The notes under the pieces were generated by a model, which had not been told where the DNA came from, searched no databases, and saw only the letters and a list, made by a program, of their open reading frames with translations. Shown here piece by piece: positions 254 through 25,832 of a stretch of DNA of 64,000 nucleotides. The stretch is from NCBI RefSeq assembly GCF_030160075.1, contig NZ_BSNQ01000003.1, positions 2,224,128 through 2,288,127 on the forward strand, given 5' to 3'. The position numbers were made by a program, and so were the translations under genes. This stretch comes from Dyella lipolytica. GTDB lineage: Bacteria > Pseudomonadota > Gammaproteobacteria > Xanthomonadales > Rhodanobacteraceae. Positions within the stretch are counted from its first letter, which is position 1; every line of letters begins with the position of its first letter.

Positions 254-1858
254 ATGTCCGACTCGCCCAACAGCACGACGACCCGCCACGAATTGTTGTT
301 CCTGAATTATTTCAGGCTGGCCCAGGCACTGGTTTACGTCGGACTTGCCTTCACCCCCGTCGGAATCGGCTGGCCGCACCTGGACAACGTCGGCCTGGCG
401 CGCATCGTCGCAACGCTCTACCTGATCTTCGCCGGGGCCGTGGTGTCGGTCACCCACATGACCAAGACCCTAGGCTGGCTGGCCATTCTGGGCACCGTGT
501 TCGTCGATATCGTTGCCGCCGTATTGGCCATCACGGCCATGAACGATGCCCGCATCGGCATCGCCATGATGTTGGCCGTGAACCTGGCTGCCGGCGCCCT
601 GCTGCTGCCCCTGCGACTGGCGTTGTTCCTTGCCGCAGTCGCCACCTTGGGCGTGCTCGGCCGCACCCTGCTGGCCTTGCCGCATCTGGTGTTGGCCGAT
701 GATCGCGACTTTCTCGAGTCCGGCCTGTTCGGCATGGCCTATTTCTCGATCGTCGTGCTGTGCAACGTGCTGGGTCGCCAGTTACGCGCCAGCGAGGCCC
801 TGGCCGAACAGCGCAGTATCGACCTGGTCAACCTTTCGCAGGTCAACGAGCTGATCATCCGCCGCATGAAAACCGGCGTGATGCTGGTCGACGATGCCAA
901 TCGCATCCACCAGATCAACGAATCGGCGTGGATGTTGCTGGGTAATCCGTCCTCCGATCAGCGCGACCTGGGCCGCGTGGCACCCGAACTGTCGCGCCGC
1001 CTGTATCACTGGATCACCTCGGGCAAGCTGGACGAAACCGCCACGCAGCTGGCGGACGGCATGCCGGAAGTGGTGCCGCGTTTCAGCCGCCTGGCGCCGA
1101 ACGACGATTCGCTGGTGCTGATCTTTCTGGACGACACCTCCCTGGTGTCCCGGCGCGCGGAGGAACTCACGCTCAGTTCGTTGGGACGCCTCTCTGCGTC
1201 GATCGCACACGAGATTCGCAATCCGCTGGCGGCGATCCGCTATTCCGCGCAGCTGCTTGCCGAGTCCAACGAGATGAATCCCACCGACCTGCGCATGGTC
1301 GAGATCATCAACAACCATTGCAGCCGCCTCAATGAAATCATCGAGAACATTCTGCAGCTGTCGCGGCGCGAACGTTCGCGTCCCGAGACGCTCAATCTCG
1401 GCGACTGGTCGCACAGCTTTGTGGAGGAATACAAGCAGGGCAACGATCTGGGGAGCGATTCGCTGCGCGTGGTCGACAACAGCCCGGCACCCGTGGCGGC
1501 CGTGGCCGATCCGCAGCAGCTGCAGCAGGTTTTATGGAATCTGGTGCAAAACGCGCTGCGCTACGGCCGCATGCCTGGAGAGGCTGCACGTGTGATGGTG
1601 GTGGTGCGTCACGGCGAGCATGGCGTGCCGATTTTGGAAGTGATCGATCGCGGTCCAGGCATTGCACCGAAAGTCGCGGCGCAGATTTTCGAGCCGTTCT
1701 ACACCACGCACGAATACGGCACGGGTCTGGGGCTTTATCTGGCGAGGCAGATGGCCGAGGCCAATCAGGCCGCGCTCGAATACGTGCGCGTTGCAGGTGG
1801 CGGGAGTTGCTTCCGGCTGGTGCTCACGCCACCGGCGCGCATCGAACCGACGGTGTAG
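254..1858 (+). CDS. pilS: Sensor histidine kinase PilS
   Basis: Membrane sensor kinase of the type IV pilus regulatory pair, expected to phosphorylate PilR, encoded 13.5 kb downstream. The 534-residue protein starts with about six membrane segments (residues 15-175), then a PAS-like cytoplasmic domain (VMLVDDANRIHQINESAW), a HisKA box with the phospho-acceptor at H319 (SIAHEIRNPL), and ATP-binding N and G boxes (NLVQNALRYG, DRGPGIAP, GTGLGLYLA). The frame is open from 194, but the first residues there are not membrane-like and run into repeat DNA; ATG 254 gives the usual PilS N-terminus. The product matches PilS of Pseudomonas and Xanthomonas in architecture. In those genomes pilR follows directly; here a sugar locus lies between them. 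Confidence 0.9.
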   Translation: MSDSPNSTTTRHELLFLNYFRLAQALVYVGLAFTPVGIGWPHLDNVGLARIVATLYLIFAGAVVSVTHMTKTLGWLAILGTVFVDIVAAVLAITAMNDARIGIAMMLAVNLAAGALLLPLRLALFLAAVATLGVLGRTLLALPHLVLADDRDFLESGLFGMAYFSIVVLCNVLGRQLRASEALAEQRSIDLVNLSQVNELIIRRMKTGVMLVDDANRIHQINESAWMLLGNPSSDQRDLGRVAPELSRRLYHWITSGKLDETATQLADGMPEVVPRFSRLAPNDDSLVLIFLDDTSLVSRRAEELTLSSLGRLSASIAHEIRNPLAAIRYSAQLLAESNEMNPTDLRMVEIINNHCSRLNEIIENILQLSRRERSRPETLNLGDWSHSFVEEYKQGNDLGSDSLRVVDNSPAPVAAVADPQQLQQVLWNLVQNALRYGRMPGEAARVMVVVRHGEHGVPILEVIDRGPGIAPKVAAQIFEPFYTTHEYGTGLGLYLARQMAEANQAALEYVRVAGGGSCFRLVLTPPARIEPTV

Positions 1859-1861
1859 CGA

Positions 1862-2875
1862 TCAGGTCGATCTAACCACTAGCGTGGTTGCCATCATCTG
1901 CGATTGCACCGGCTGGCTATGAATCAACGCCAGCACTTTGCGCGCCAGCAGCACACCGCCCTCCTGCCAGTTCTGGCGCACCGTGCTCAACGGCGGCAGA
2001 AAGCTCGCGCCCAGCGGCGTGTCGTCATAACCGATCACCGAAACATCGTTCGGCACGGATAGCCCGAGTTCGACCAGGGCACGGATCGCGCCCATCGCCA
2101 GCAAGTCACTGCACGCAAAGATCGCATCGAAGCGAACCTTTCGACTGTGCAGCGAACGCACCGCGTCGACGCCCGATTCGAGGGTGAAATCCGCTCGGCG
2201 CAAAAGCAGCGGCTTGATGCCGTGGTCAGCCAGCTCGTCGACAAAACCGAACAGGCGCTGCGCCATTTCGGGGTGATCCGGGTTGCCTATAAAAACCGGA
2301 TTGCGCCGCCCGATGGAAAGAAAGCGCTCGGCCACGCTGATGCCGCCCTGTCGGTTGTCGCTGCCCACCACGATATGGCTATCGCCACCCTGCCCGGCCG
2401 CGCCCCACACCACCATCGGCATGCCCAGCTTGTCATAGAGACGCACAGCATCCTGGCGCACACCCTGGCCCAGCAGAATCAGGCCATCGGCGGATTGCAC
2501 CGACGCGTCCGCTGCGCCCTGGCGCGTGGTCAGCAGCACGCTGTAGCCGGCCGACGTCAGCTCCTGCGAGATACCACCTAGCAGGGACAACGGGTACGGA
2601 TCCCACATGGTGCGCCCGGAGGACGGTTTCATTTCCACGATCACCGCCACCGTGTGGCTGCGCCGCAGGCGCAGATTGCGGGCGCTGACATTCAGCTTGT
2701 AGCCATGCTTGCGCGCCAGCTCTTGAAGGCGTTCCCGCGTTTCCACATTCACCAGCGGACTGTCGCTCAGCGCCCGCGAAATGGTGATCTTGGATACCCC
2801 CGCCAACTTGGCCAGATCGGCCATGGTCAGGCCGGGGCGTTGCGCAAGGGGTTGTTTCTTCTTGGCGTGCGTCAA
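1862..2875 (-). CDS. LacI-family regulator of the alpha-glucoside locus
   Basis: DNA-binding repressor of the LacI/GalR family, encoded divergently from the phosphorylase gene. It has an N-terminal helix-turn-helix (LAKLAGVSKITISRAL), the LacI hinge helix region (NLRLRRSHTVAV) and a periplasmic-binding-like effector domain ending near SVIGYDDTPLGASFLPPLSTVRQ. The start is uncertain. The family normally has a few residues before the helix-turn-helix, so the ATG at 2824 is too late. TTG 2875 (MTHAKKKQPL) with GAGGG about 11 nt upstream is preferred; the frame is open to another TTG at 2956. The likely operator is the tandem palindrome at 3010-3036. The effector is inferred to be an alpha-glucoside or a derived sugar; the sequence alone does not show it. 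Confidence 0.85.
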   Translation of the reverse strand: MTHAKKKQPLAQRPGLTMADLAKLAGVSKITISRALSDSPLVNVETRERLQELARKHGYKLNVSARNLRLRRSHTVAVIVEMKPSSGRTMWDPYPLSLLGGISQELTSAGYSVLLTTRQGAADASVQSADGLILLGQGVRQDAVRLYDKLGMPMVVWGAAGQGGDSHIVVGSDNRQGGISVAERFLSIGRRNPVFIGNPDHPEMAQRLFGFVDELADHGIKPLLLRRADFTLESGVDAVRSLHSRKVRFDAIFACSDLLAMGAIRALVELGLSVPNDVSVIGYDDTPLGASFLPPLSTVRQNWQEGGVLLARKVLALIHSQPVQSQMMATTLVVRST

Positions 2876-3009
2876 GAGGCTGCCCTCGAAAGGCGGTGCG
2901 CGGAGCAATGCCGCATACCCGGACAAGTGTGGCCCGCGAACCGCGGCGGCGTCCAATCCAGCGATGTTTTCAGCCCGTTCACGAGCGCAAGTTGGTGCGA
3001 TGCCGCATA

Positions 3010-3036
3010 TGATATCGATATCTTGATATCGATATC
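3010..3036. promoter_or_regulatory. Tandem palindromic operator (2 x GATATCGATATC)
   Basis: Two perfect 12-bp palindromes GATATCGATATC occur at 3011-3022 and 3025-3036, as a 14-bp direct repeat (TGATATCGATATCT/A). They lie between the divergent LacI regulator and the phosphorylase gene and overlap the -35 element of the promoter at 3023-3051. The symmetry and location fit a double LacI-family operator. Binding by the adjacent regulator is inference. Confidence 0.7.
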
Positions 3037-3051
3037 ATTCGCTTCTATGCT
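3023..3051 (+). promoter_or_regulatory. Sigma-70-type promoter for the phosphorylase gene
   Basis: TTGATA at 3023-3028, a 17-bp spacer and TATGCT at 3046-3051 make a good sigma-70 match, about 60 bp upstream of the start at 3114. The -35 box and half the spacer lie inside the tandem palindrome, so a bound repressor would block RNA polymerase directly. Confidence 0.6.
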
Positions 3052-3113
3052 CGCCCCACAAGAGGCCTCAGGGCCGACGAGAAGACCAAGCAACGATGCC
3101 GAGGGGAGAGTGC

Positions 3114-6100
3114 GTGCACAGCCACGATGCGCCAACACCAGCCAGGGATACGGCACATCAGGTATCTCCGGACACCTGGCGCTTGGTGCATACGCATCGC
3201 CCGGCCGATAGCGAGCGGGCCAGGCTGGAAAGCCTGTTCGCCCTCGCCAACGGCATGCTTGGCGTGCGCGGCGGCCTGGAAGAAAGCCGCAGCCCGACCC
3301 AAGGCACCTTCCTTACTGGGGTCTGGGAACGTACGCCCATCGAGTATCACGAACGCTTCCCCGGCTTCGCTCGCAGCACCGATACGCGCATCCCCGTCGC
3401 CGACGGTACGCGCATCGGCCTGCGCCTGGGCGAAACACCGGTGGATCTGGATGAAGGCGAATGGCTGGCATTCGAGCAGGCTTTGGATCTGCGCGCCGGC
3501 TGCCTGCAACGCACTCTGCGTTGGCGCTCCCCCACGGGCGTCACTCTGCAGATCGACGCGGAGCGGATCGTACCCCTGCACACGCCGAACCTCCTGTGCA
3601 TCCGCTACCGCGTCACCTCTATCGACTACAGCGGCCCGATCACCCTCGAATCGGCCCTGGTCGCCAACACCGCCGCAGCCACGCAAGGCGACGACCCGCG
3701 TATCGGCACGCGTCTCGACGGCGGTCTAAGCATCACCGCCTTGGATTCGGATCAGACGCTGGCCTCGATCTGCCAGCGCACCCAAAACAGCCACATCCGA
3801 CTTGCCAGCGGCCAGCGCCATCGACTGAGGGAACCCGGACTGAGCTTCACCCGCGCCATCATTGAAGATGGGCAAGGCGCACAGCAGCACTACAGCGCTG
3901 AGCTGCACCCAGGCCAAAGCGTGATGCTGGAAAAGTACGTGGCCTACGCCTGGAGCCATCCCGAAAGCAGCGATACCGAAGCGCACCTGCTCGACGCCGT
4001 CGCCGCCAGCCTGGAACGGGCACTGGCGCAGAATTTCGACGCCCACCACGCCGACCAGGCAAAGGCCTGCGACGCTTTCTGGCGCGAGGCCGAGCTGATG
4101 ATCGACGGCGATCCGGCTGTCGAACAAGCGCTGCGCTTCAATCTGTTCCATCTGCTGCAGTCGACCGGCCGCGACGGCAACGGCAGCGCGGCCGCCAAAG
4201 GCCTTACCGGCGAGGGCTACGAGGGCCACTACTTCTGGGACGCCGAAGCCTTCGTCCTGCCCGTGCTCGCGCTGACTTCGCCAGCGCAAGCACGCAGCAT
4301 GCTCGAATATCGCGTCAACACACTCGCGCGTGCACGTAACCACGCACGCGAAATGAATCATCCGGTCGGCGCGTTGTACGCATGGCGCACGATCAGCGGC
4401 GACGAATGCTCGGCCTACTTCCCATCCGGCTCCGCGCAATATCACATCAATGCCGCGATCGCCTTCGCGATCCGCTTTTACGTCGACGCCACCGGCGATA
4501 CGGATTTTCTCGTGCGCGGCGGCGCCGACGTGTTGTTCGAGACGGCGCGCCTCTGGCATCACGTGGGCTATTACAACCCGCGTCGCAACAACGCGTTCTG
4601 CATCTGTCAGGTCACCGGCCCCGACGAATACACGGCACTGGTCGACAACAACTACTACACCAACCACATGGCGCAGCAACACCTGCGCTACGCCGCCGTT
4701 GTCGCGGCGCAATTGGCGCAGGACAAGCCGCAGGATTACGCGCGCATCGCCGCCGCGATCGATCTGTCGGAAAAAGAAATCGCGTCGTGGCTCGCTGCCG
4801 CGGATGCCATGTATCTGCCGGTCGATCCGACACTAGGTATCTTTCCGCAGGACGACGACTTTCTCGACAAGCCGCGTCTCCCCGCCACGCACTCGAACGA
4901 ACTGGGACATCGTCCGCTGCTGCTGCAAATGCATCCGCTGACGATCTATCGCCACCAGGTATGCAAGCAGGCCGATGTGCTGCAAGCCTTCGTGCTGGCC
5001 GGCAATGCGATCGACAAGGACAGCAAGCGCCGTAACTTCGATTACTACGAAGGCGTCACAGTGCACGACTCCACGCTGTCGGCATCGACCTTCAGCATCG
5101 TCGCTTCGGAAGTGGGCTATGCCGACAAGGCCTACCGCTATTTCCTCGGCACCTTGCGCGTGGATCTGGACAATCTGCACGGCAATACGTCGCACGGCGT
5201 GCACATGGCCGCGATGGCCGGCAGCTGGCTGGCGCTGGCCTGGGGCTTCGGTGGCATGCGGGCAATGAATGGCCACTCGGCTTTCGCGCCGGTGCTGCCG
5301 GCTGCATGGCGCGGTTATCGATTCGGTGTGCGTTGGAAGAACAGCCACATTCGCGTATCGGTTGGAAAAGATCGCGTGGAATACACGCTGACCGAAGGCG
5401 CACCGACGGAAATCCTGCATCACGGCCAGCCGTTGACGTTGCGCGTCGGGCAACCTCTCAGCGCGCCACTGCGCGCGTCCGCTTCGCAGAGCCTGAAAGG
5501 CCTGCTCTTCAAGGGTGTGATCTTCGATCTCGACGGCGTGATTGCCGACACTGCCGTGGTGCACCACGCCGCCTGGAAACAACTCGCTTCCGAGATCGGC
5601 ATACCTTTCGACGATGCGATTGGCGAAAGGCTGAAAGGCGTCGATCGTCGCAGTTCGCTGGACATCCTGCTCGAGCAGACGTCGCACGCATTTTCCGAGG
5701 ACGAAAAAGAAACGCTCGCCACCCGCAAGAACAACTACTACCGGCAACAGATCGAACACCTCGGCCCAGAGAACCTGCTGCCTGGCGCGCGCCATGCGAT
5801 CGAGTCGGTTCGCCGCGCCGGACTGAAAACCGCGCTGGCTTCGGCCAGCCGCAACGCACCGCTTCTGCTGGAAAGACTCGGCATCGCCGATTTGTTCGAC
5901 TACGTGGTGGACGCCAACCACATCCGTCGCGCCAAACCCGATCCCGAGATTTTCCTGGCCGCCGCGCGCGGCCTCGGCCTGGCACCGAGCGAATGCCTTG
6001 GCGTGGAGGACGCCGCGGCGGGCATTGCCAGCATCCACTCCGCAGGAATGAAAGCAGTGGGAATTGGCCATGCGCAAGCATTGGCCGGGGCAGACCTGCT

Positions 6101-6146
6101 ATTGCCGAGCGTCGCCGCGTTCGACATCAGCGTGTTTACGACATAA
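3114..6146 (+). CDS. GH65 glycoside phosphorylase fused to beta-phosphoglucomutase
   Basis: Predicted cytoplasmic bifunctional enzyme of 1010 residues. Residues 1 to about 785 form a GH65 (alpha/alpha)6-barrel phosphorylase of the maltose/kojibiose/trehalose phosphorylase type. The general acid is E505 in VTGPDEY, followed by LVDNNYYTN, KQADVL and TVHDSTLS. Residues about 797-1010 form a HAD-family beta-phosphoglucomutase, with FDLDGVI supplying D805 (nucleophile) and D807, then ASASRNAP and a late GVEDAAAGI. Together they would turn a disaccharide plus phosphate into glucose plus beta-glucose 1-phosphate, then glucose 6-phosphate. GTG 3114 is chosen because GAGGGGAG lies 5 nt upstream (3101-3108); the in-frame ATG at 3096 has no such site. 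The two activities are often separate neighbouring genes. The exact disaccharide cannot be told from sequence. Confidence 0.88.
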   Translation: MHSHDAPTPARDTAHQVSPDTWRLVHTHRPADSERARLESLFALANGMLGVRGGLEESRSPTQGTFLTGVWERTPIEYHERFPGFARSTDTRIPVADGTRIGLRLGETPVDLDEGEWLAFEQALDLRAGCLQRTLRWRSPTGVTLQIDAERIVPLHTPNLLCIRYRVTSIDYSGPITLESALVANTAAATQGDDPRIGTRLDGGLSITALDSDQTLASICQRTQNSHIRLASGQRHRLREPGLSFTRAIIEDGQGAQQHYSAELHPGQSVMLEKYVAYAWSHPESSDTEAHLLDAVAASLERALAQNFDAHHADQAKACDAFWREAELMIDGDPAVEQALRFNLFHLLQSTGRDGNGSAAAKGLTGEGYEGHYFWDAEAFVLPVLALTSPAQARSMLEYRVNTLARARNHAREMNHPVGALYAWRTISGDECSAYFPSGSAQYHINAAIAFAIRFYVDATGDTDFLVRGGADVLFETARLWHHVGYYNPRRNNAFCICQVTGPDEYTALVDNNYYTNHMAQQHLRYAAVVAAQLAQDKPQDYARIAAAIDLSEKEIASWLAAADAMYLPVDPTLGIFPQDDDFLDKPRLPATHSNELGHRPLLLQMHPLTIYRHQVCKQADVLQAFVLAGNAIDKDSKRRNFDYYEGVTVHDSTLSASTFSIVASEVGYADKAYRYFLGTLRVDLDNLHGNTSHGVHMAAMAGSWLALAWGFGGMRAMNGHSAFAPVLPAAWRGYRFGVRWKNSHIRVSVGKDRVEYTLTEGAPTEILHHGQPLTLRVGQPLSAPLRASASQSLKGLLFKGVIFDLDGVIADTAVVHHAAWKQLASEIGIPFDDAIGERLKGVDRRSSLDILLEQTSHAFSEDEKETLATRKNNYYRQQIEHLGPENLLPGARHAIESVRRAGLKTALASASRNAPLLLERLGIADLFDYVVDANHIRRAKPDPEIFLAAARGLGLAPSECLGVEDAAAGIASIHSAGMKAVGIGHAQALAGADLLLPSVAAFDISVFTT

Positions 6147-6163
6147 AGCGGCTAACAGACAGA

Positions 6164-6179
6164 CGTGGCCCGCGCCACG
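6164..6179. other. Short intergenic hairpin
   Basis: CGTGGC and GCCACG form a 6-bp stem with a 4-base loop between the phosphorylase gene and the TonB-dependent receptor gene. There is no T-run, so it may affect RNA processing or be incidental. Confidence 0.35.
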
Positions 6180-6212
6180 CGATCACTTACAAACCGTTGG
6201 GGAGAACGATTG

Positions 6213-8759
6213 ATGAACAACAAGCCACTCACACGCCTAGCGCTATCAGCGGCGATCGCGACCACGCTCGCATCTGGTGTCGTCTATGCACAGGACAGCA
6301 ACCAGGCCCAGACCACGCCGCCGCCCGCGACGACCACGACCAACGCCAATCCCGGCAGGCAACCGACCAATGACAAGAACACCAAGACGCTTGAGCAGGT
6401 CGTGGTGACAGGCACGGCCACCTTCGCCGGCATCAAGAAGATCGACGCGGCCTACTCGATCACTTCGATGTCCGCCCAGCAAATCAAGGAAGCCAACCCC
6501 AAGAGCGCCGCCGACCTGCTGAAAGCATCGCCTGGCGTCTATCCGGAATCCTCCGGCGGTCAGACCGGCGCGAACATCGAAGTGGCCGGTTTCCCGGGCG
6601 GCGGCGACGCGCCTTATGCCACGTACCAACTCAATGGCACGCCGCTTTATCCGATGTCTACCCTCTCGTTCATGGAGAACTCCTCCATGTTCCGCCTCGA
6701 CGACACCATCGATCGCGCTGAAATCGTGCAAGGCGGTCCCTCGGTGCTGTATGGCAACGGACAGCCCGGTGTGACGGCGAACTTTATCCTCAAGGAAGGC
6801 ACGGACGTACCTTCGGGCGATCTCGGCTTCACCTACGGCTCTGAAGGGATGGAGCGCTTGGACGGCTTTATTGGCTTCAAGATCGCCAACAATTGGTACG
6901 GCAGCGTCGGCGGATTCTGGCGCCGGTCCGACGGCGTGCGCGATCCCCAATTCCCGGCCGATAACGGCGGCCAGTTGACGGCTACGTTGACGCGCGATTG
7001 GGATAGCGGTTCGCTAATGTTCTACGCACGCTCGCTGAAGGATCACAACCAGTTCGTCACCGATACGCCGATTCTCAATCCGGGTCAGGGCAGTTTCTCC
7101 AACTATCCAGGCTTCAACGCGCTAACTGGCACCTTCGGCAGCAAGGCCGACCAGCGCGAATTTATCCAGACCACGCCTTGCTTCACCGCAGGTTGCACAC
7201 CGGGCGGCCTCGACGTGAACCTCGCCAAGGGACGCGGCGCAGACATACACCTATTCGGTACCAACTTCGATTGGGATTTCGGCAACGGCTGGTCGCTCTC
7301 CGATAAGCTGGGCTTTACCGGCGGCGAGATGAACACCGTGTCGTTCTTCAGCACGGGCAACAACCCCACCTCGTTGGCAAACTACATTGCTACGGCTGAA
7401 GCCGCTGACACGCAGCTTCCCACCGGCCTCACTGCCATCGCCACCTACACCAACGGCAGCCCGGCCAGCATGAACCAGAACGTCACCACGCAGGGACTCT
7501 GGTACGTGCACAAGGTCATCCAGGCGATCAGCAACGAATTCCATGTCAGCAAGGAATTGTTCGATGGCAACACGCTGACCGTCGGCAACTACACCGCCGT
7601 CTACAACGATCACGACACATGGTTCCTGGGCAACAACATGCTGCTGCAGGCCCAGAACAATCCGAATCCGATTGTGGTCGACCTCACTAACGGCGCCAAT
7701 ACATGGCAGCTCACCAGCCCACAGGGCTTCGCTGGTGCTGTGTCTGCAGCGGCCATCCGCGAACGCTGGAGCGGATTCAATACCGCGTTCTTCGCTACCG
7801 ACAGCTGGAAAGTCGACAACTGGCTGTTCGACGGTGGCTTGCGCGTAGAACGCCAACAGGCGAATGGCGCTATCGCCAACACCACTACCGGCGATCTCGA
7901 TGCCAATCCGTACACGCTGTACAACAACAGCTCCATATACTTCGCACCGGGACAGAGCTACATCCACTACTTGAAGACGGAAAAGTCCTGGACGCTCGGC
8001 GCCAATTACGAGTTCAACCCGAACATGAGCGCCTACGTTCGCGCGAATCTGGGTATCCACTTCCCGGGTTTCGATGACCTCCGCGGCTTGCCGACCACTC
8101 CGGTGCAAAAGGTCAAGAACTACGAGATTGGTTTCAAGTACCAGGCCGACTGGATCTATGCCGACGTCAGTGCTTACCGCAGGTTGTTCTACAACGTGCC
8201 GTACACCATCACCACGGACACCGGCCAGCAGACGTTCGTGTATGGATCGCAAACGAAGGGCGTGAATTTCACCACCACCGTGCAGCCATTCGAGCACGCT
8301 GCGATCACCTTCTCCGGCGACTACATGGATGGTCATTACAACCGTTACGTCGGTTGCGTCACGTACACGGCCCAGAACGGCAGCACGCAATGCGCAAGCA
8401 TCAACGGCATGCAGCTGCAACGCCAGCCGAAGTTCCAGGCCCGCCTGACGCCCTCTTACGACCTCCCCGCAAGCTGGGGCGACGTCAAGGTGTGGATCAC
8501 CTATGAACACATCGGCAATCGCTATGGCGATCTGATCCAGCAGCAGCCGCTGGGCAGTTACTACGATCTCAGCTTCGGCGTACTCGCCAATGTCGGCCAA
8601 CACTGGGAATACAGCGTGCAGGGCACCAACCTGACCAACCAGATCGGCATCACCGAAGGCAATGCCCGCTTGTTCGGCTTTGCCAGTACCGGTGGCGTGA
8701 TTCTGGCGCGCTCGATCGAAGGCCGCGAGGTGCAGGGACAGATCAAATACAAGTTCTGA
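6213..8759 (+). CDS. TonB-dependent outer-membrane receptor, alpha-glucoside uptake
   Basis: Outer-membrane beta-barrel transporter of 848 residues. A Sec signal peptide (residues 1 to about 26, ending VVYA before QDSN) is followed by a proline/threonine-rich linker, a TonB-box-like segment (EQVVVTG), a plug domain (INEANPKSAADLLKASPGVYPESSG region) and a 22-strand type barrel ending in a terminal phenylalanine (QGQIKYKF), as needed for BAM recognition. ATG 6213 is chosen because GGGGAGA lies 8 nt upstream at 6199-6205 and a signal peptide follows directly. Its place between sugar enzymes suggests uptake of an oligosaccharide, perhaps malto-oligosaccharides, trehalose or kojibiose. It has no N-terminal signalling (STN) domain, so it is a transporter rather than a transducer. 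Confidence 0.9.
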   Translation: MNNKPLTRLALSAAIATTLASGVVYAQDSNQAQTTPPPATTTTNANPGRQPTNDKNTKTLEQVVVTGTATFAGIKKIDAAYSITSMSAQQIKEANPKSAADLLKASPGVYPESSGGQTGANIEVAGFPGGGDAPYATYQLNGTPLYPMSTLSFMENSSMFRLDDTIDRAEIVQGGPSVLYGNGQPGVTANFILKEGTDVPSGDLGFTYGSEGMERLDGFIGFKIANNWYGSVGGFWRRSDGVRDPQFPADNGGQLTATLTRDWDSGSLMFYARSLKDHNQFVTDTPILNPGQGSFSNYPGFNALTGTFGSKADQREFIQTTPCFTAGCTPGGLDVNLAKGRGADIHLFGTNFDWDFGNGWSLSDKLGFTGGEMNTVSFFSTGNNPTSLANYIATAEAADTQLPTGLTAIATYTNGSPASMNQNVTTQGLWYVHKVIQAISNEFHVSKELFDGNTLTVGNYTAVYNDHDTWFLGNNMLLQAQNNPNPIVVDLTNGANTWQLTSPQGFAGAVSAAAIRERWSGFNTAFFATDSWKVDNWLFDGGLRVERQQANGAIANTTTGDLDANPYTLYNNSSIYFAPGQSYIHYLKTEKSWTLGANYEFNPNMSAYVRANLGIHFPGFDDLRGLPTTPVQKVKNYEIGFKYQADWIYADVSAYRRLFYNVPYTITTDTGQQTFVYGSQTKGVNFTTTVQPFEHAAITFSGDYMDGHYNRYVGCVTYTAQNGSTQCASINGMQLQRQPKFQARLTPSYDLPASWGDVKVWITYEHIGNRYGDLIQQQPLGSYYDLSFGVLANVGQHWEYSVQGTNLTNQIGITEGNARLFGFASTGGVILARSIEGREVQGQIKYKF

Positions 8760-8791
8760 TACGTGTTCATCGCCCTCCCCTCCTAGGGCAC

Positions 8792-8822
8792 CCATGGCCG
8801 GATGTCACACATCCGGCCATGG
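8792..8822 (+). terminator. Strong hairpin after the TonB-dependent receptor
   Basis: A perfect 14-bp stem (CCATGGCCGGATGT with its complement) and a 3-base loop, 33 bp after the receptor stop. It is followed by ACTTTCCT rather than a run of T, so it may be a partial terminator or an mRNA-stabilising hairpin separating receptor from transporter expression. Confidence 0.55.
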
Positions 8823-8942
8823 ACTTTCCTCACGAGGCAAGTTGTAGAGTTGGCGGTGCCATGCGCGGCAGCTTCCCGCGCTATTCGCAGTGGCGGTGAC
8901 TATCATGTTTTCGCTCACGCATTCATTTCCAAGCAGGTCGCC

Positions 8943-10205
8943 ATGAATCGATTCCGCATGCTTGCCGCGCTGGCGCTGATCTACATGGTCTTCGCGATCC
9001 TGCTCAATAGCGTCGGCACGGTTATCCTGCAATCGATCTCTACCTTCGGCGTCGACAAGCCACAGGCCAGCCTGCTGGAACTGTTCAAGGATCTGCCGAT
9101 CGCGATCACCTCTCTGCTGGTCGCTTCCTTCCTTCCCCTGTTCGGCTACCGGCGCGCGATGATGATCGCGCTCGGCATCGTCGCCTTTGCCTGCGTGCTG
9201 ATGCCGCTCTATCCGAGCTTCCATACCACCGAGCTGCTTTTTACGTGCGTCGGCATTTCGTTTGCGCTGACCAAAGTAGCCGTGTATTCCTCGATCGGTT
9301 TGTTGACCAACGACCGCAGCGAGCACGGCCGTCTCACCAACACCGTCGAAGGGCTATTCATGGTGGGCGTGCTGATAGCCGGCTGGCTGTTCAGTGCCTT
9401 CGTCGATCGTAGTGCACCGGCAAATCCTTCGTGGCTCAACGTCTACTGGGTGCTTGCGGTGATCTGCGTACTTGTGATCGTGCTGCTCGCTACGTCGCAG
9501 CTCGACGAATCGGCTGCGCGTACCGATGAAACGACATCGATGCGCGGCTCGCTCGCCGAAATGCTGCATCTGTTCTTGCGGCCGCTGGTTTATGTATTCC
9601 TCGCCTCGGCCTTTCTGTACGTGTTGATCGAGCAGAGCTTCAGCACCTGGCTGCCGACCTTCAATAACGAAATACTCAAGCTGCCCAATGCGATGAGCAT
9701 CCAGGTCGCCAGCATCCTCGCCGCCGCATCGGCCATCGGCCGCATCACAGCCGGACAAGTGCTTCGCCGCATGCCTTGGTATGCGCTGTTGAACCTGTGC
9801 GTGGTCGGCATGGGGTTGCTGGTCACGCTGACCTTGCCGCTGGCGCACGGTGTAACGGCACGCACCGATATCGGCTGGTTCAACGCTCCGATTGCCGCGT
9901 ACCTGATCCCGCTGATCGGCTTGCTGATGGCGCCGATCTATCCAGTGATCAATTCCGTAGCACTGAGCTCATTGCCGAAACCTTCGCATGCGGCAATGAC
10001 CGGTTTGATCGTGATTTTTTCCGCACTCGGCGGCACCCTCGGCTCCCGCATCACCGCCATTATCTTTTCACGCTTCAACGGCATTCACGCGTTCTATTTC
10101 TCGCTGGTGCCCATGTCGCTGATCTTGATCACGCTATTCCTCTTCAAGCGCGAAACCGATCGGGCGGGCCAGAAGACGGCACGCATCACCTTCACGGCCA
10201 AATAG
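8943..10205 (+). CDS. MFS transporter, probable sugar permease
   Basis: Inner-membrane major facilitator of 420 residues with about 12 hydrophobic segments. The first begins at residue 5 (MLAALALIYMVFAILLNSVG). A basic loop after helix 2 (FGYRRAMM) and the central cytoplasmic loop (about residues 185-205) fit the MFS fold. The frame is open from 8802, but ATG 8943 places the first helix at the N-terminus and excludes the hairpin DNA. By context it would move the disaccharide or glucose released in the periplasm into the cell, feeding the GH65-phosphoglucomutase fusion. Similarity is general to sugar MFS proteins; the substrate is inferred only from neighbours. Confidence 0.8.
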   Translation: MNRFRMLAALALIYMVFAILLNSVGTVILQSISTFGVDKPQASLLELFKDLPIAITSLLVASFLPLFGYRRAMMIALGIVAFACVLMPLYPSFHTTELLFTCVGISFALTKVAVYSSIGLLTNDRSEHGRLTNTVEGLFMVGVLIAGWLFSAFVDRSAPANPSWLNVYWVLAVICVLVIVLLATSQLDESAARTDETTSMRGSLAEMLHLFLRPLVYVFLASAFLYVLIEQSFSTWLPTFNNEILKLPNAMSIQVASILAAASAIGRITAGQVLRRMPWYALLNLCVVGMGLLVTLTLPLAHGVTARTDIGWFNAPIAAYLIPLIGLLMAPIYPVINSVALSSLPKPSHAAMTGLIVIFSALGGTLGSRITAIIFSRFNGIHAFYFSLVPMSLILITLFLFKRETDRAGQKTARITFTAK

Positions 10206-10250
10206 CGCTGTCCGGGCCGAAACGTGCAACGCGCCATCGCTGGAGTTTCC

Positions 10251-12497
10251 ATGAGTTTTCGCAACATCGGCATGTTGGGACTGTTTCTTGCTGCGTGCGC
10301 CGCCGCGGCCACCGCCCGGGGTGCCACGGATCCAAGCTTTTTGCTCACCGCCACGTCCGATAACTTCGGCAGCTACTTTCCCAGCTATTTGGCGAACGGC
10401 TATTTCTCCACGATGACCTCGCCACGCGGCACCGAGCCGAATCGCGCATACATGGTCGCGTTCATGGATTACGACAAAGCCGACATTTCGCGCCCCGCAG
10501 CGATACCGGGCTGGAGCGAGATCGACTACAACCCCGGCGGAGGCTGGCTGAATGCGACACGCCTGGACAAGAAGATCTTTGCGGACTATTCGCAAACGCT
10601 GGACATGTACGACGGCACGCTCACCACACGCTATCGCTTCGACTACGCCAACAAAGCGACGGACGTGCAGGTGGTTACCTTCGTCAGCCAGGCCAATGCG
10701 CATCTCGCTGCGACGCAAATCACCATCACGCCGCAATTCGACGGCAGTGTGGAACTCACCTTTCCGCTTCGCCTGTGGTCCGAATACCAGCCGCGCTTTC
10801 CGATTGGAAGCATGAGCGGCGATCAGATGATCGCGTCGGTCATAGCGAGCGGGCAAACGCTCGATAACAAGCCGATACCGACCCCCGATCGCGCTGCGGT
10901 GTGGTATCCGGGCTACACCCAGGTGTTATCCAGCGACGGCAACACCAAGGCACTGACATTGTGGCTCGATGGCCGCGCCAAGCAAGGCCTGAGCATGGCC
11001 GAGGCGGCGGCGATCGAATTGCCTGCATCGTTGACCGTAGAGAACGTAAAACTCGAGAAGACCCACGACCTGCTCTCCTTGCACATCACTGCGAAGGTGA
11101 AAAAAGGCGTGACATACACCTTCACCAAATACCTCGCCGCTTCGCGCCAGGATTGGGGCGGTGCGGCGAAAGACGATGTCGTGCTTGCCACGCAGGCACG
11201 ACAAGCGGGCTTTGCGGCACTGCTCGCCAGACACCGGGCCACGTGGAACGAACTGTGGCAGTCCGACATCGTCGTGGACGGCGATCCGCAAGTTCAGAAG
11301 GCCGTGCATTCCGATCTCTACTATCTGCTTTCCAACACCACCGTCGATACGGCGTGGCCCATGGGCGCCTGCGCACTGACGCCGAACTACGCAGGCCATG
11401 CGTTCTGGGATAGCGACTCCTGGGTGTTCCCCGCACTGCTTCTGCTGCATCCCGAGCGCGCCAAGCCGATCGTGATGTTCCGTCATCGCACCATGCAACC
11501 GGCGCGCGAGCGTGCCGTGCAATATGGGGCCAAGGGCACGATGTATCCGTGGGAAGCCGATCCGCAAACCGGCGTCGACAATACGCCGCACTTCGCCTAC
11601 GGCGTCTATCGCGAGATCCACGTCAACGCCGATATCGCCATCGCGCAATGGCAGTACTACCTCGCCAGCGGCGACACTGCGTGGCTGAAGCAATACGGTT
11701 GGCCGGTGATCCACGAGATCGCGCAGTTCTGGGCCAGCCGCGTCACCTACGACAAGGCGCAAGATCGCTACGAAATCATGCACGTCACGTCGCCGGACGA
11801 GGCTTATGACGACGTGCCAAACGATTCGTTCACCAATGCCGCGGCGCGCAAGGCGCTGCTGATCGCTATTGAAGCAGCGAAAGCAGTCGGCGAGCCAGCC
11901 GATCCGCAGTGGTCAAACATGGCAGCCAAGATGTACATCCCGTTCCTTGAGAAGGAACAACGTCATCTCGATTTCGACGAATCCGTACCGCACGACAAAA
12001 TCACGTGGATGGGTTCCTCGCTGGCGTGGTTGATGTATCCCAACCTCGACCTGCCGATGTCGGAAACCGTGCGCCGGAACGATTTCGACTTCCAGCTGCA
12101 CGAGCTGAAAGTCCATGGTGACGATCCGAACGAAATGATGATGGTGATGCTTGCAGTCGCGGCTTCCGAGCTGGGTGATGCGAAGACCGCCGGCGACTGG
12201 ATTCAACGTAACCTGGTCGGCTTTCTCAAGCCTCCCTTCAACGTACGCACCGAAACAGTCGCCAACAACGCGGGCTACATCCTCGCCACGTCGGCGGGCT
12301 TCGTGCAAAGCATGGTGTATGGCCTTACCGGCCTGCGTATCGACGACAAGGGGCTCGACGCGGCGTACGCGCCCACGTTGCCGCCAACGTGGACATCGCT
12401 GACGCTCAAACGCATCCGTTTCCAGGGCAAGCAATACGACATTACCGTGCAGCGCGACGCGCAAGGCAAGGCGACGTTGATACGTCATGCATTGTGA
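10251..12497 (+). CDS. GH65 family hydrolase, predicted lipoprotein
   Basis: Exported glycoside hydrolase family 65 protein of 748 residues. The N-terminus has a lipoprotein signal (GLFLAAC, lipid cysteine at C16), suggesting membrane anchoring on the periplasmic or outer face. The GH65 core includes HAFWDSDSWVFPALLLLHP and VTSPDEAYDD, where E517 is the expected general acid. It differs from the cytoplasmic GH65 paralogue at 3114-6146 in being exported, where free phosphate is scarce. A hydrolase role, as in the known GH65 alpha-1,2-glucosidases (kojibiose hydrolases) and acid trehalases, is therefore more likely than phosphorolysis; this is inference. ATG 10251 is chosen because the signal peptide starts there and GGAG lies 8 nt upstream. 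It is 46 nt upstream of the trehalase gene, probably in one transcript. Confidence 0.85.
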   Translation: MSFRNIGMLGLFLAACAAAATARGATDPSFLLTATSDNFGSYFPSYLANGYFSTMTSPRGTEPNRAYMVAFMDYDKADISRPAAIPGWSEIDYNPGGGWLNATRLDKKIFADYSQTLDMYDGTLTTRYRFDYANKATDVQVVTFVSQANAHLAATQITITPQFDGSVELTFPLRLWSEYQPRFPIGSMSGDQMIASVIASGQTLDNKPIPTPDRAAVWYPGYTQVLSSDGNTKALTLWLDGRAKQGLSMAEAAAIELPASLTVENVKLEKTHDLLSLHITAKVKKGVTYTFTKYLAASRQDWGGAAKDDVVLATQARQAGFAALLARHRATWNELWQSDIVVDGDPQVQKAVHSDLYYLLSNTTVDTAWPMGACALTPNYAGHAFWDSDSWVFPALLLLHPERAKPIVMFRHRTMQPARERAVQYGAKGTMYPWEADPQTGVDNTPHFAYGVYREIHVNADIAIAQWQYYLASGDTAWLKQYGWPVIHEIAQFWASRVTYDKAQDRYEIMHVTSPDEAYDDVPNDSFTNAAARKALLIAIEAAKAVGEPADPQWSNMAAKMYIPFLEKEQRHLDFDESVPHDKITWMGSSLAWLMYPNLDLPMSETVRRNDFDFQLHELKVHGDDPNEMMMVMLAVAASELGDAKTAGDWIQRNLVGFLKPPFNVRTETVANNAGYILATSAGFVQSMVYGLTGLRIDDKGLDAAYAPTLPPTWTSLTLKRIRFQGKQYDITVQRDAQGKATLIRHAL

Positions 12498-12543
12498 AAA
12501 AGAGACGCCACACCACGCAAAACGCATTGATGGGTGAACAAAC

Positions 12544-14196
12544 ATGAAGCTCTCAACATTCTCCCTGCTGCTTCTATCGGCGACGCTCAGTACGGGAACG
12601 ATGGCGACGCAACCGGATCCCGCCAAAACGCGCGCCTATATCGACCAGGCTTGGAGCACGCTCACGCGCTCGACGGACGACTGCGCGTCACTGGTGGATA
12701 TCAAGGTCGCCAATCGCCCGGTGCTCTACGTACCCGCGCAATTCTCCATGCCGGTGGACCTGGCTCAGGTGCAGAAGCGCTGCAACGTCGACGTGCAACC
12801 CCTGCCGCGCGCCATCGAAAACCTGGGCGATGTCGACGCGACAAAGCTGCCCGCACAGGGCCTGCTCTATCTGCCGCACCCTTATGTCGTTCCCGGTGGC
12901 TTCTTCAACGAAATGTACGGTTGGGACAGCTACTTCATCACGCTCGGCCTGATTGCCGACCACCACATCGACCTCGCGCGCAGCATGGTCGACAACGCCT
13001 TGTTTGAAGTGCAGTACTACGGCGGCGTGCTCAACGCGAACCGCAGCTATTACCTGAGTCGTTCGCAGCCGCCGTTCCTCTCCGCCATGATGGCGGCCCT
13101 GCTCGACGATCCGACGAGCTTTCACAACGCATCTGAAAAGCGCGCCTGGCTTGAACAGGCCTATCCGCTTGCCGTGCGCAATTATCGGATCTGGACACGA
13201 CCGGAGCATCGCGCTGGCGATACCGGCTTGGCGCGTTACTACGACCTGGGCAGTGGTCCCGTGCTGGAAGCGCTCGACAGTGAGTTTTATCGCGGCGTGA
13301 TCAAGTGGCTGCTGGCGCATCCGTCCGAGAATCCCGGTTATCTCGTGAAAGCGTCGGAACATCCGGATGACGCCGAGGCGGCACGCCTGAAAACGGAAAG
13401 CTGCGACGTGCGCGCGTCGAAGGTCTGCGCCGGCGCATGGGTGGATGGCTATCGACTCACGGCCGACTACTACCACGGCGATCGCGCCATGCGCGAATCG
13501 GGCTTCGACACCAATTTCCACTTCGGTCCGTTCGGCGGTTCCACGCATCACTATGCGGCGGTGGATTTGAACAGCTTGCTCTATCGCTACGAACGCGACT
13601 TGCACGATTTCGCCATGCGGCTGGGCAAGACGGCGGATGCCGAGCGCTGGACGCAAGCGGCGGCGGCGCGCAAGCGAGCGATGAACAAATACTTGTGGCG
13701 CCCCGAATTTGGCATGTATCGCGATTACGATTTTGTCGCCGGCAAGCCTTCCGATGCGCCTTACCTCACCACCTTCTATCCACTGTGGGCCGGCGCCGCT
13801 TCGGCGCAACAAGCGGCAGCAGTCCGCGACAAGCTTTCCATTTTCGAACTGCCTGGCGGACTGACGATGGACAACCGTTCCAGCGGCACGCAATGGAACA
13901 GTCCCTTCGGCTGGGCACCGACCAATTGGCTGGCGGTATCCGGTCTCGACGCCTATGGTTTTCACGACGATGCACGCCGCATCGCCGGCAAGTTCGACGC
14001 CACCGTCGATCGCAGCTTCGCGGCGGACGGCACCATTCGCGAGAAATACAATATGGCGCTGGGCAATGCCGACGTGAAGGTGAGTGCGGGCTACACCGCG
14101 AATGTGATTGGTTTCGGGTGGACCAACGGCGTGTACCTGAAGCTGCAAGAGATCTTGCATGGCCCGTCCGCCACACAACCCGTCATCGTGAAGTAA
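12544..14196 (+). CDS. treA: Periplasmic trehalase, GH37
   Basis: Hydrolyses alpha,alpha-trehalose to two glucose in the periplasm. The 550-residue protein has a signal peptide (residues 1 to about 21, LLLLSATLSTGTMA). Signature 1 appears as PGGFFNEMYGWDSY and signature 2 as QWNSPFGWAPTNW. The usual catalytic acid position is kept as D322 (SGFDTNF) and the base as E500 (IREKYN), judged by alignment with E. coli TreA in memory. The segment around D322 departs from the common SGWDFSSRW, so it may be a divergent subgroup with a changed substrate. It is probably cotranscribed with the GH65 lipoprotein gene upstream. Export of both enzymes with the TonB receptor suggests glucose is released outside the inner membrane. 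Confidence 0.88.
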   Translation: MKLSTFSLLLLSATLSTGTMATQPDPAKTRAYIDQAWSTLTRSTDDCASLVDIKVANRPVLYVPAQFSMPVDLAQVQKRCNVDVQPLPRAIENLGDVDATKLPAQGLLYLPHPYVVPGGFFNEMYGWDSYFITLGLIADHHIDLARSMVDNALFEVQYYGGVLNANRSYYLSRSQPPFLSAMMAALLDDPTSFHNASEKRAWLEQAYPLAVRNYRIWTRPEHRAGDTGLARYYDLGSGPVLEALDSEFYRGVIKWLLAHPSENPGYLVKASEHPDDAEAARLKTESCDVRASKVCAGAWVDGYRLTADYYHGDRAMRESGFDTNFHFGPFGGSTHHYAAVDLNSLLYRYERDLHDFAMRLGKTADAERWTQAAAARKRAMNKYLWRPEFGMYRDYDFVAGKPSDAPYLTTFYPLWAGAASAQQAAAVRDKLSIFELPGGLTMDNRSSGTQWNSPFGWAPTNWLAVSGLDAYGFHDDARRIAGKFDATVDRSFAADGTIREKYNMALGNADVKVSAGYTANVIGFGWTNGVYLKLQEILHGPSATQPVIVK

Positions 14197-14250
14197 TTCG
14201 AAGTTATGCGTAGGTTGATGATGAACGTGGCCCGCTCTAAGGGGAACATC

Positions 14251-15312
14251 ATGCATGTAGTACGCCTTCTTTCTGCCGCATCAGCCTTCCTGCTGTGCAC
14301 AGCCGCATTCGCACAAAACGCCTCTCCCAGTGTCACTCCCGACGGCAGCGTAAGCTCGTCAGTTGCGACCGTGCCCTACTCGGCCCTCGCCTCGCCGGAA
14401 GCGCACGACTTTTTTCCCAAGATGCTGGCCGCGGGTAGCAAGGCGCCACCGATAACCGCACCGATCGCGCAGAACCGTGCCTTCTACGACCGCATGAACA
14501 GCGATCGCGCCGCGCGCATGGAAAAGCTCTATCCGGTGAAGATCCATAGCGAGACCATCGCCGGCGTCGGCACCGATGTCGTGCTGCCCGCGGAAGGTAT
14601 TGCGCCGGAAAATCGCGATCGCGTGCTGATCAATCTGCATGGCGGCGGCTTCCTGTGGGGGGCGCACAGCGGTGGCCTGGTCGAATCCATCCCCATCGCC
14701 AGCATCGGTCGGATCAAGGTCATCAGCGTGGACTACCGGCAAGGGCCCGAGCACACCTTTCCGGCCGCCAGCGACGATGTGGAGGCGGTCTATCGCGCCT
14801 TGCTCAAGCAGTACAAGCCCGCCCAGATCGGCATCTACGGCTGCTCCGCAGGCGGCATCCTCACCAGCGAGGCGGTTGCCCGCTTTATCACCGACCAGCT
14901 TCCCGTTCCTGGCGCCATCGGCACCTTTTGCGGCTCGCTGGTGGATGTCAGCGGCGATTCGGCCTATGTCGCCCCGTTGTTGAACGGTCAGGGCATACCG
15001 GCGCATCCGCTAGGGCTGGCCGAGCTGCCCTATTTCCACGGTGTAAATCTAAACGATCCGCTGGTGCAGCCGGGGCTGTCGCCGACCCTGCTGGCCAAAT
15101 TCCCGCCCACGTTGTTGATCACCGGTACGCGCGACATGACGATGAGTTCGGTGCTCTATAGCCAGCAGCTGCTGGACCGCGCCGGTGCCCAGACCGAACT
15201 GCATGTTTGGGAAGGCATGTGGCACTCCTTCTTCTCCGACCCGGAGCTGCCCGAGTCGAAGGAGGCCTATCGCACCATCGTCCATTTTTTCCTACAACAC
15301 TTGAGTCGTTGA
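14251..15312 (+). CDS. Secreted alpha/beta-hydrolase esterase (HSL type)
   Basis: Exported carboxylesterase-like enzyme of 353 residues. A signal peptide (residues 1 to about 21, ending TAAFA) is followed by an alpha/beta-hydrolase fold of the hormone-sensitive lipase group: oxyanion motif HGGG at H130, nucleophile S199 in GCSAGG, acid D295 (GTRDM) and base H325 (MWHSFF). ATG 14251 is preferred over 14206 because AAGGGGAA lies about 6 nt upstream and the signal peptide follows at once. It is the last gene before pilR and could deacylate esterified sugars taken up by the locus, but the sequence does not show the substrate. Confidence 0.8.
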   Translation: MHVVRLLSAASAFLLCTAAFAQNASPSVTPDGSVSSSVATVPYSALASPEAHDFFPKMLAAGSKAPPITAPIAQNRAFYDRMNSDRAARMEKLYPVKIHSETIAGVGTDVVLPAEGIAPENRDRVLINLHGGGFLWGAHSGGLVESIPIASIGRIKVISVDYRQGPEHTFPAASDDVEAVYRALLKQYKPAQIGIYGCSAGGILTSEAVARFITDQLPVPGAIGTFCGSLVDVSGDSAYVAPLLNGQGIPAHPLGLAELPYFHGVNLNDPLVQPGLSPTLLAKFPPTLLITGTRDMTMSSVLYSQQLLDRAGAQTELHVWEGMWHSFFSDPELPESKEAYRTIVHFFLQHLSR

Positions 15313-15334
15313 CGCTACGTACACACATCGCGCT

Positions 15335-15363
15335 TTGCCACTGACGGGCGCGGCGAGTATCCT
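15335..15363 (+). promoter_or_regulatory. Candidate sigma-70 promoter for pilR
   Basis: TTGCCA at 15335-15340, a 17-bp spacer and TATCCT at 15358-15363, 29 nt before the pilR start. This gives pilR its own promoter, as expected given its distance from pilS. Confidence 0.5.
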
Positions 15364-15392
15364 GAAACACACCCTACCTTCGCCTCCGGACC

Positions 15393-16835
15393 ATGAGCCA
15401 ACAGACCGTCCTGGTCATCGACGACGAACGCGATATCCGCGAACTGCTCACCATCACCCTAGGCCGCATGGACCTGAAGGTCGATGCCGTCGGCACCGTG
15501 GCCGAGGCGCGCCACGCGCTAGGTGAACGCAGCTACGACCTGTGCTTCACCGACATGCGCCTGCCCGACGGTAGCGGCCAGGAAGTGATCGAGCTGATCG
15601 CAGCGGAACATCCCGATACGCCCGTGGCGATGATCACCGCCTACGGCAATGTCGACGCGGCCGTGACCGCACTGAAGGCCGGCGCCTTCGACTTCGTCTC
15701 CAAACCGGTCGACATCCAGATGCTCCGCCGGCTCGTGCGCACCGCGCTGAAACTGGCCGAGGAAAAACGCAGCGGCGCCGGTGCCGGCAGTGCAGCGACC
15801 CATTCCAGCGATCGCCTGATCGGCGACTCGGCGGTCATGCAGCAGGTGCGCAGCACCATCGGCAAACTGGCCCGCAACCAGGCGCCTGTCTACATCGCCG
15901 GCGAATCAGGCGTGGGCAAGGAGCTGGTGGCGCGGCTGATCCACGAACAAGGGCCGCGCGCCACCGGACCGTTCGTACCGGTCAACTGCGGCGCGATTCC
16001 GTCGGAGCTGATGGAAAGCGAATTCTTCGGCCATCGCAAAGGCAGCTTCACGGGCGCCGGCGCCGACAAAGAAGGCCTGTTCCAGGCCGCCCACGGCGGC
16101 ACGCTGTTCCTGGACGAAGTCGCTGAGCTGCCCCTGCACATGCAGGTGAAGCTGCTGCGCGCGATCCAGGAAAAAGCCGTGCGCCCGATCGGCGCCCGCG
16201 AGGAAGTGGCCGTGGACGTGCGCATTCTCTCCGCCACTCACAAAAACCTCGCCGCGCTCGTCGACCAGAGCCAGTTCCGCCAGGATCTGTTCTACCGCAT
16301 CAACGTGATCGAGCTGCGCGTGCCGCCGCTGCGCGAACGTCGCGGTGATGTGTCGCTGCTCGCCGATTTCGTGCTGCGTCAGCTCGCCGCGAAGAGCAAG
16401 AGCGAAAGCGGCGCCGTGCGCCTGCTGCCCGAAGCGCGACAAGCGCTGGAGGAATACGACTTCCCAGGCAACGTGCGCGAGCTGGAAAACATTCTCGAAC
16501 GCGCCGTCGCCATGTGCGATGGCGACCGCATCGACACCACCGATCTGATGCTGCCGCAACGCCCGCCACGTCAGAGCGCGGATACCGCCGCCGCCATGCA
16601 TACCCATCATCATGCGCAATCCGGCGTTACGCAGCTCGGTTCCGCACCTTCCGCACCACCGGCCCCCGCACCATCCAGCGAACTGCCGCTGGATGACTAC
16701 ATCAGCAATCTCGAACGCACGGCGATCATGAAGGCGTTGGAAGAATCGCGCTACAACAAGACCGCCGCAGCACGGAAGCTGGGTATCACGTTCCGTGCAT
16801 TGCGCTACAAGCTAAAGAAACTCGGCATCGACTAG
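15393..16835 (+). CDS. pilR: Sigma-54 response regulator PilR
   Basis: NtrC-type activator of sigma-54 promoters, classically that of the major pilin gene. The 480-residue protein has a receiver domain (residues 1-125, phospho-acceptor D54 in CFTDMRLPDGSG), a AAA+ domain (Walker A GESGVGKE, sigma-54 contact loop GSFTGA, Walker B GTLFLDE) and a C-terminal Fis-type helix-turn-helix (NKTAAARKLGITFRALRYKLKKLGI). A histidine-rich, proline-rich linker precedes the last domain. The GSFTGA form of the loop is normal for PilR. Its cognate kinase PilS is at 254-1858. It converges on the three-gene phosphorelay operon with only 27 nt between stops. Confidence 0.92.
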   Translation: MSQQTVLVIDDERDIRELLTITLGRMDLKVDAVGTVAEARHALGERSYDLCFTDMRLPDGSGQEVIELIAAEHPDTPVAMITAYGNVDAAVTALKAGAFDFVSKPVDIQMLRRLVRTALKLAEEKRSGAGAGSAATHSSDRLIGDSAVMQQVRSTIGKLARNQAPVYIAGESGVGKELVARLIHEQGPRATGPFVPVNCGAIPSELMESEFFGHRKGSFTGAGADKEGLFQAAHGGTLFLDEVAELPLHMQVKLLRAIQEKAVRPIGAREEVAVDVRILSATHKNLAALVDQSQFRQDLFYRINVIELRVPPLRERRGDVSLLADFVLRQLAAKSKSESGAVRLLPEARQALEEYDFPGNVRELENILERAVAMCDGDRIDTTDLMLPQRPPRQSADTAAAMHTHHHAQSGVTQLGSAPSAPPAPAPSSELPLDDYISNLERTAIMKALEESRYNKTAAARKLGITFRALRYKLKKLGID

Positions 16836-23216: not shown

Positions 23217-23236
23217 GGAATGGGGGCCAATAGTGG

Positions 23237-23254
23237 GTTTGGATCGTTCTAAAC
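23237..23254. promoter_or_regulatory. LacI-type operator, GH92 side
   Basis: GTTTGGATCGTTCTAAAC, a near-palindrome with one mismatch between arms, 21 bp upstream of the GH92 start. It shares the core TTTGGATCGTTC with the second site at 23327-23344. Confidence 0.7.
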
Positions 23255-23326
23255 TCGGCAAACTAACACCGGCGATTTTTCTCCGCATGTTGCAGTGCGC
23301 GATAGCAATTTCGCCGATTCAGGTAA

Positions 23327-23344
23327 ATTTGGATCGTTCCAAAT
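23327..23344. promoter_or_regulatory. LacI-type operator, regulator side
   Basis: ATTTGGATCGTTCCAAAT has perfect 7-bp arms around a 4-bp centre and lies 17 bp upstream of the regulator start at 23362. The 90-bp spacing from the other site would allow looping or independent control of both directions. Binding by the adjacent LacI protein is inferred. Confidence 0.72.
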
Positions 23345-23361
23345 GCAAGGATCGGGGATAA

Positions 23362-24414: not shown

Positions 24415-24431
24415 TCCATACGGAATTCATC

Positions 24432-25757: not shown

Positions 25758-25832
25758 ATATCTCTATCCACGGAGCGTGCAATCTGTGCGCTGCCAACTG
25801 ACGCGGCACTACGACGTATTGGGGTTTATTTG

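Follow-up and report, generated by a model that had tools for sequence, protein, structure and literature searches.

The locus analysed here raises the question of why pilS and pilR, which are adjacent in Pseudomonas, stand far apart in Dyella lipolytica with sugar genes between them, and how old this arrangement is. We analysed a stretch of 64,000 nucleotides, referred to below as the window, in which the following features are concerned.

254..1858, + strand: pilS, sensor kinase with 6TM_PilS, HisKA and HATPase_c domains; left flank of the locus
1862..2956, - strand: LacI-family regulator of the sugar locus, its stop 3 bp from the pilS stop; in 36 of the 37 split intervals described below
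3096..6146, + strand: GH65 phosphorylase-like domain fused to beta-phosphoglucomutase (GH65-betaPGM); in 37 of 37 split intervals
6165..8759, + strand: TonB-dependent receptor; in 36 of 37 split intervals
8802..10205, + strand: MFS transporter (domain match)
10224..12497, + strand: GH65 enzyme like the kojibiose hydrolase FjGH65A (domain match, alignment)
12544..14196, + strand: trehalase-family enzyme (domain match), presumably GH37
14206..15312, + strand: hormone-sensitive-lipase-type esterase (NF058650, 501.7 bits, cut-off 410); right end of the locus
15334..15363, + strand: promoter-like site of pilR, TTTGCC-n18-TATCCT, 29 nt before the ATG
15393..16835, + strand: pilR, sigma-54 response regulator; right flank of the locus

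The coordinates and shared forward strand that a preliminary description had given for pilS and pilR were borne out. The pilS reading frame runs from an ATG at 254 to a stop ending at 1858, with a longer reading from 194. Its product matched the Pfam family 6TM_PilS (PF25323, 44.5 bits against a cut-off of 27) as well as HisKA and HATPase_c, and that of pilR matched a receiver, a sigma-54 activator domain, an AAA lid and a Fis-type HTH. Of the NCBIfam models matched by pilS (77) and pilR (105), none of the best 25 for either gene reached its cut-off; the names were given on the strength of the PilS membrane domain, the order of the domains and the best matches being neighbours in 61 of 117 genomes of the family. 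The window thus contains the PilS-type six-TM kinase and the sigma-54 response regulator of a PilS/PilR system, with 13,537 bp between the two matches where those 61 genomes have them adjacent. A succinyl-CoA-ligase-type gene lies upstream of pilS and divergent to it (L009:18446-19603), and the matches to pilS among named sequences include D. psychrodurans, D. dinghuensis and D. flava at 93%. In one genome (G012), the pilS match fell into two pieces in different frames (query 7-386 and 387-529), which is a frameshift or a sequencing error.

Between the two genes, where a sugar-use locus had been proposed, we confirmed a seven-gene alpha-glucoside locus. It groups a TonB receptor, an inner-membrane transporter, sugar enzymes and a regulator, as CUT-type carbohydrate loci do, and its GC content (0.586-0.638 in 2-kb steps from 2001 to 14000) is similar to that of its surroundings. 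The GH65-betaPGM fusion is one protein of 1016 aa, whose best alignments are with maltose and kojibiose phosphorylases; it has Ser-Thr where those carry Ser-Ser, and phosphorolysis is likely but not certain. The second GH65 enzyme has Glu aligned at both catalytic positions of FjGH65A (numbering offset 3, counted by eye), these residues being those given in PMC8626586. Judged by gene content, alpha-glucosides of the trehalose, maltose or kojibiose kind are predicted to be imported via the TonB receptor and the MFS carrier and to be split by the trehalase and the GH65 hydrolase. The GH65 half of the fusion would carry out phosphorolysis, its betaPGM half would turn beta-glucose 1-phosphate into glucose 6-phosphate, and LacI is the predicted repressor of the locus. 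A second sugar-type cluster lies past pilR (20877-28024: GH92, LacI, MFS and GlcNAc 2-epimerase), preceded by two histidine-kinase-type genes.

The arrangement was surveyed in 117 genomes of the family from 26 genera, the window's own genus counted. The best matches to pilS and pilR were adjacent (<1 kb) in 61 genomes. In 37 genomes of 11 genera they shared strand and contig but were split, lying 3.2-24.9 kb apart; in the others they were >300 kb apart (2), on opposite strands (6), on different contigs (7) or not both found (4). All seven same-contig genomes of the window's genus were split, while genera g13, g14, g18, g19 and g22 each held both states. Among other families of the order (62 genomes, 26 of them without a usable pair at the thresholds used), the gap was <600 bp in 29 of 36 usable pairs and 1.1-4.5 kb in four, and the best pilR match lay upstream in three. 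Since the pair is usually adjacent across the order, adjacency is likely the older state; the split is an insertion, but an old one common to many genera and no event of this genome. The preliminary description had read the split as a sugar locus inserted at an otherwise conserved junction, which these counts support, and its proposed search for junctions where pilS meets pilR directly found them in the 61 adjacent genomes. Its alternative of an old ancestral order held in part, as the split is shared by the window's genus and genomes of ten others.

A set of named sequences, biased toward close relatives of this pilS, gave a similar picture: among the best 80 named pilS loci, the sugar locus followed pilS in 54 and pilR followed directly in 19, and the remaining seven comprised five with <1 kb of contig left, L099 and L144. 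On the other side of pilS, which served as a control junction, a divergent sucC-like gene was present in 80 of 80 loci and within 1 kb in 78. In L144 (Rhodanobacter glycinis), pilS is followed by a sugar transporter, GH3, LacI and TonB receptor genes; we dropped it as a second kind of cargo because a different contig carries its pilR and alpha-glucoside locus, and a rearrangement may account for the break. The seven genomes of genus g5 show another rearrangement of the pair, with the best pilR match 8.6-10.8 kb away on the opposite strand (four genomes) or hundreds of kb away (three). Sequence L232, considered together with g5, carries sucC-like, kinase, NAD synthase and YfiO-type genes, and L068, titled Candidatus Eremiobacteraeota and probably mislabelled, has a pilS 96% identical to that of the window followed by the same locus. 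Our literature search, which included Dyella, Rhodanobacter and Xanthomonas, found no published report of pilS and pilR split by a sugar locus.

The same locus, complete or in part, was present in each of the 37 split intervals. GH65-betaPGM was matched in every one, and LacI and the TonB receptor in all except G017; the MFS transporter, second GH65 enzyme, trehalase and esterase were variably present. Order and orientation were near-constant, with LacI at the pilS side, the exception being G093 and G116, in which the GH65-betaPGM and TonB receptor genes are inverted and a GH36-like gene adjoins pilS, together with GH125 and 2OG-Fe genes in G116. Three named sequences (L102, L118 and L134) share this inversion and also have further genes adjoining pilS (GH36-like and, in some, GH125, 2OG-Fe and TPR-2OG). 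Additional genes in the intervals encode a sulfatase in G020, a GH127 enzyme in G116 and a TPR-2OG-Fe protein in G038 and similar genomes. At the right end of the interval in L014 (G080), the esterase matches as two short pieces only and looks broken.

GH65-betaPGM was found in 53 of the 117 genomes (E <= 1e-150), matched along most of its length and split or cut by contig ends in two. These 53 comprise the 37 with split intervals, four in which contig ends break the region (the pilS side visible in G092 and G028, the pilR side in G028, G054 and G115), 11 with the locus elsewhere in the genome, and G077. In all 11, LacI and TonB receptor genes are nearby, as is the MFS gene in nine, and the esterase is absent from all the retrieved stretches around the locus. 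Rhodanobacter sp. MP7CTX1 (L098) likewise has adjacent pilS and pilR and the locus at a different site, namely L227:9674-19501, beside phosphoesterase and cytochrome c peroxidase genes. At the same threshold, GH65-betaPGM was not found in eight adjacent genomes of genera g14, g18, g19 and g22 (G019, G022, G035, G040, G049, G090, G102 and G105).

A general promoter scan scored 9/12 at 15335-15363, where 0.2 sites were expected in the 1-kb region. Each of the 37 split genomes has a site at most two letters off TTTGCC-n17/19-TATCCT at 28-32 nt ahead of pilR; this consensus was derived from the same sequences that it scores, and the similarity says nothing of activity. Among empty genomes, G022, G035, G040, G049 and G090 have the exact TTTGCC/TATCCT site, G009, G019, G102 and G105 have TTGACC-n16/18 followed by TAACCT or TACCCT, and the other 11 score 7-11/12, lowest in g2, g6 and g24 (7-8/12). 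The candidate promoter that the preliminary description had assigned to pilR recurs as a pattern among relatives. At the empty junctions inspected pilS ends, by eye, shortly before this site, and at loaded ones the insert sits between the pilS stop and the site, leaving neither gene broken. The insertion spot is probably harmless, as it falls between the end of one gene and the putative promoter of the next.

Remnants of the locus were found at otherwise empty or reduced junctions. The 157-bp gap of Dyella subtropica (L132, G040) retains the C-terminus of LacI (blastx 4.5e-6), and the 230-bp gap of Dyella sp. C11 (L085, G090) that of the esterase (blastx 1.8e-4), the latter gap also matching the right end of G113 over 143 bp (blastn 2.5e-15). 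In G017, which keeps only GH65-betaPGM, an esterase C-terminus precedes pilR (5e-8). The scan covered 39 gap sequences from overlapping sets (20 family genomes and 19 named), of which only four rows, representing these two gap sequences, reached E <= 1e-3; letter-shuffled gaps reached the scan threshold in 2 of 3900 cases, with a best value of 5e-5, so the blastx scar of L085 is by itself modest evidence. Weaker scar-like matches in G049, G019 and others (E 0.04-0.42) were left uncounted. We read the scars in the three genomes as in-place deletions of the locus.

To compare the history of the locus with that of its carriers, we used a tree of a single gene, rpoB (sequences obtained for 60 of 61 genomes searched, 59 scored for state), and a LacI tree of 40 junction copies, with which a second set of 49 named copies agreed. 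In the rpoB tree, the window's genus groups with g14, g19, g3 and g21 (98/99) in a Dyella-like clade, and a union with g22, a Rhodanobacter-type group, is rejected (p-AU 0.003); g22 was tested as a five-genome core, as rpoB does not group its further members. In the LacI tree the window's genus joins g22 (100/98), and the test on LacI rejects the Dyella-like clade (p 5e-7). This clade is also rejected by GH65-betaPGM (4e-4), MFS (5e-7) and the esterase (5e-4), all three of which reject the union with g22 as well, so that this grouping is seen for LacI only; for the trehalase the Dyella-like clade is not rejected (p 0.18). We gave no weight to the trees of the GH65 hydrolase and the TonB receptor, in which paralogues or strongly diverged copies may be mixed. 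On these trees, the locus genes have mixed histories, and the conflict between LacI and rpoB suggests that the regulator gene, if not more of the locus, crossed between genera and kept its address; transfer of LacI at the same address seems to have occurred. For the flanks, the clade tests gave 0.42 and 0.28 with partial pilS, 0.10 and 0.043 with partial pilR, and 0.34 (Dyella groups) and 0.07 (with the Rhodanobacter group) with full pilS. By partial pilS, each of the eight empty genomes from the mixed genera g14, g18, g19 and g22 fell within its own genus; by partial pilR six of them did, and G102 and G019 were unplaced.

The comparative finding that a recurrently remodelled sugar locus occupies a fixed junction inside a two-component pair is real and well supported, and its kind is known. 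As its explanation we favour, with good though not full confidence, that the pilS-pilR junction is a long-lived and recurrently remodelled address for a CUT-type carbohydrate locus, whose cargo is tolerated, exchanged and lost. The junction would tolerate cargo because pilR would have a promoter of its own and need no read-through from pilS, homologous recombination in the pil genes on either side would carry loaded alleles from one related genus to another, and losses would be ordinary in-place deletions. A further step, which we regard as unlikely, would make the junction a cross-genus cassette-exchange address, with Dyella, Rhodanobacter and Frateuria relatives swapping loaded and empty alleles by pilus-dependent natural transformation; pilS and pilR would recombine and themselves act as homology arms for exchanging metabolic genes. 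Also unlikely is a single ancestral insertion inherited only vertically, with many losses and no transfer between genera. The same order and orientation in nearly all intervals, the scars that prove losses and the genus-level groups that recur in the LacI tree all speak for it, but on rpoB a single gain requires 13 losses among the 59 scored genomes, against at least 12 state changes at equal cost, and the rejection by LacI of a clade that rpoB supports already appears to strain it.

A remodelled address is also to be preferred to a true hotspot, in which the locus and other cassettes were inserted independently at the same junction. Such a hotspot, which we think improbable, would account for the extra genes beside pilS and the inverted block in two genomes and three named sequences, and for the 11 genomes with the locus at another site; the near-uniform layout of the other intervals argues against it, and gains alone require 22 events on rpoB. 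It is very doubtful that the locus stays there because PilSR controls it or because sugar supply and pilus control are linked: 11 genera keep the address, but the locus was repeatedly lost and lies elsewhere in 11 genomes, and no sigma-54 site (TGGCAC-N5-TTGCW) with at most one mismatch occurs in the 64-kb window, where 2.8 were expected by chance, so we rejected PilR/sigma-54 control of the locus. We give hardly any credence to a recent island insertion in which copies of the repeat at 1-190 recombined, the route that the preliminary description had suggested. This repeat is indeed dispersed and lies 60 bp upstream of the pilS start: query 1-2400 had 75 matches in the genome, one being the window itself and 74 lying within query positions 5-198 and spread genome-wide. 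However, it is on the far side of pilS and does not border the locus at either end, the scans detected no further copy beside the locus, and the split is common to 11 genera; as far as this genome goes, the route is refuted. The repeat has inverted arms, and similar letters were seen by eye downstream of pilS in G021 and, in some g6 genomes, between pilS and pilR.

Taken as a remodelled address, this one junction offers a natural series of empty, loaded, reduced, scarred and double-loaded states over 11 genera, which makes it possible to date and test how a sugar locus is gained, lost and exchanged. It is a good natural example of metabolic genes being gained, lost and swapped at a fixed chromosomal address in Dyella/Rhodanobacter relatives. 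It also indicates that a kinase gene and its regulator gene need not stay together when the latter carries a promoter of its own, which calls for care where two-component genes are paired by their position.

The window's pilS and pilR, 13.5 kb apart, differ in this respect from the pair of Pseudomonas, in which the genes are adjacent. They share the six-TM PilS-type kinase and the sigma-54 response regulator with PilS-PilR of P. aeruginosa, in which PilR activates pilA with sigma-54 (PMC6058289). The sugar locus resembles the Xanthomonas CUT loci, such as the sucrose locus sux, in its grouping of TonB receptor, inner-membrane transporter, enzyme and regulator; sux has an amylosucrase (PMC1790865), whereas the enzymes here are GH65, the GH65-betaPGM fusion, trehalase and esterase. 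Unlike sux, the locus sits within the pilS-pilR pair, and its role in sugar uptake is a prediction. As for mobility, no tRNA was found in the window, no integrase or transposase was found by Pfam among its seven locus genes (the check covered these and nine cargo proteins), and neither the integrase nor the attachment repeats or tRNA target of an integrative genomic island were found in the window. The junction has variable content between conserved flanks and, within the scope of this check, no mobile-element genes. The address resembles the hotspots without mobile elements of Oliveira et al. (PMC5635113), in which recombination occurs at the flanking core genes; like them it has fixed core flanks and fast gene turnover and shows no integrase or tRNA. 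Unlike those hotspots, which span strains of one species, the pilS-pilR address spans genera and carries mostly one locus.
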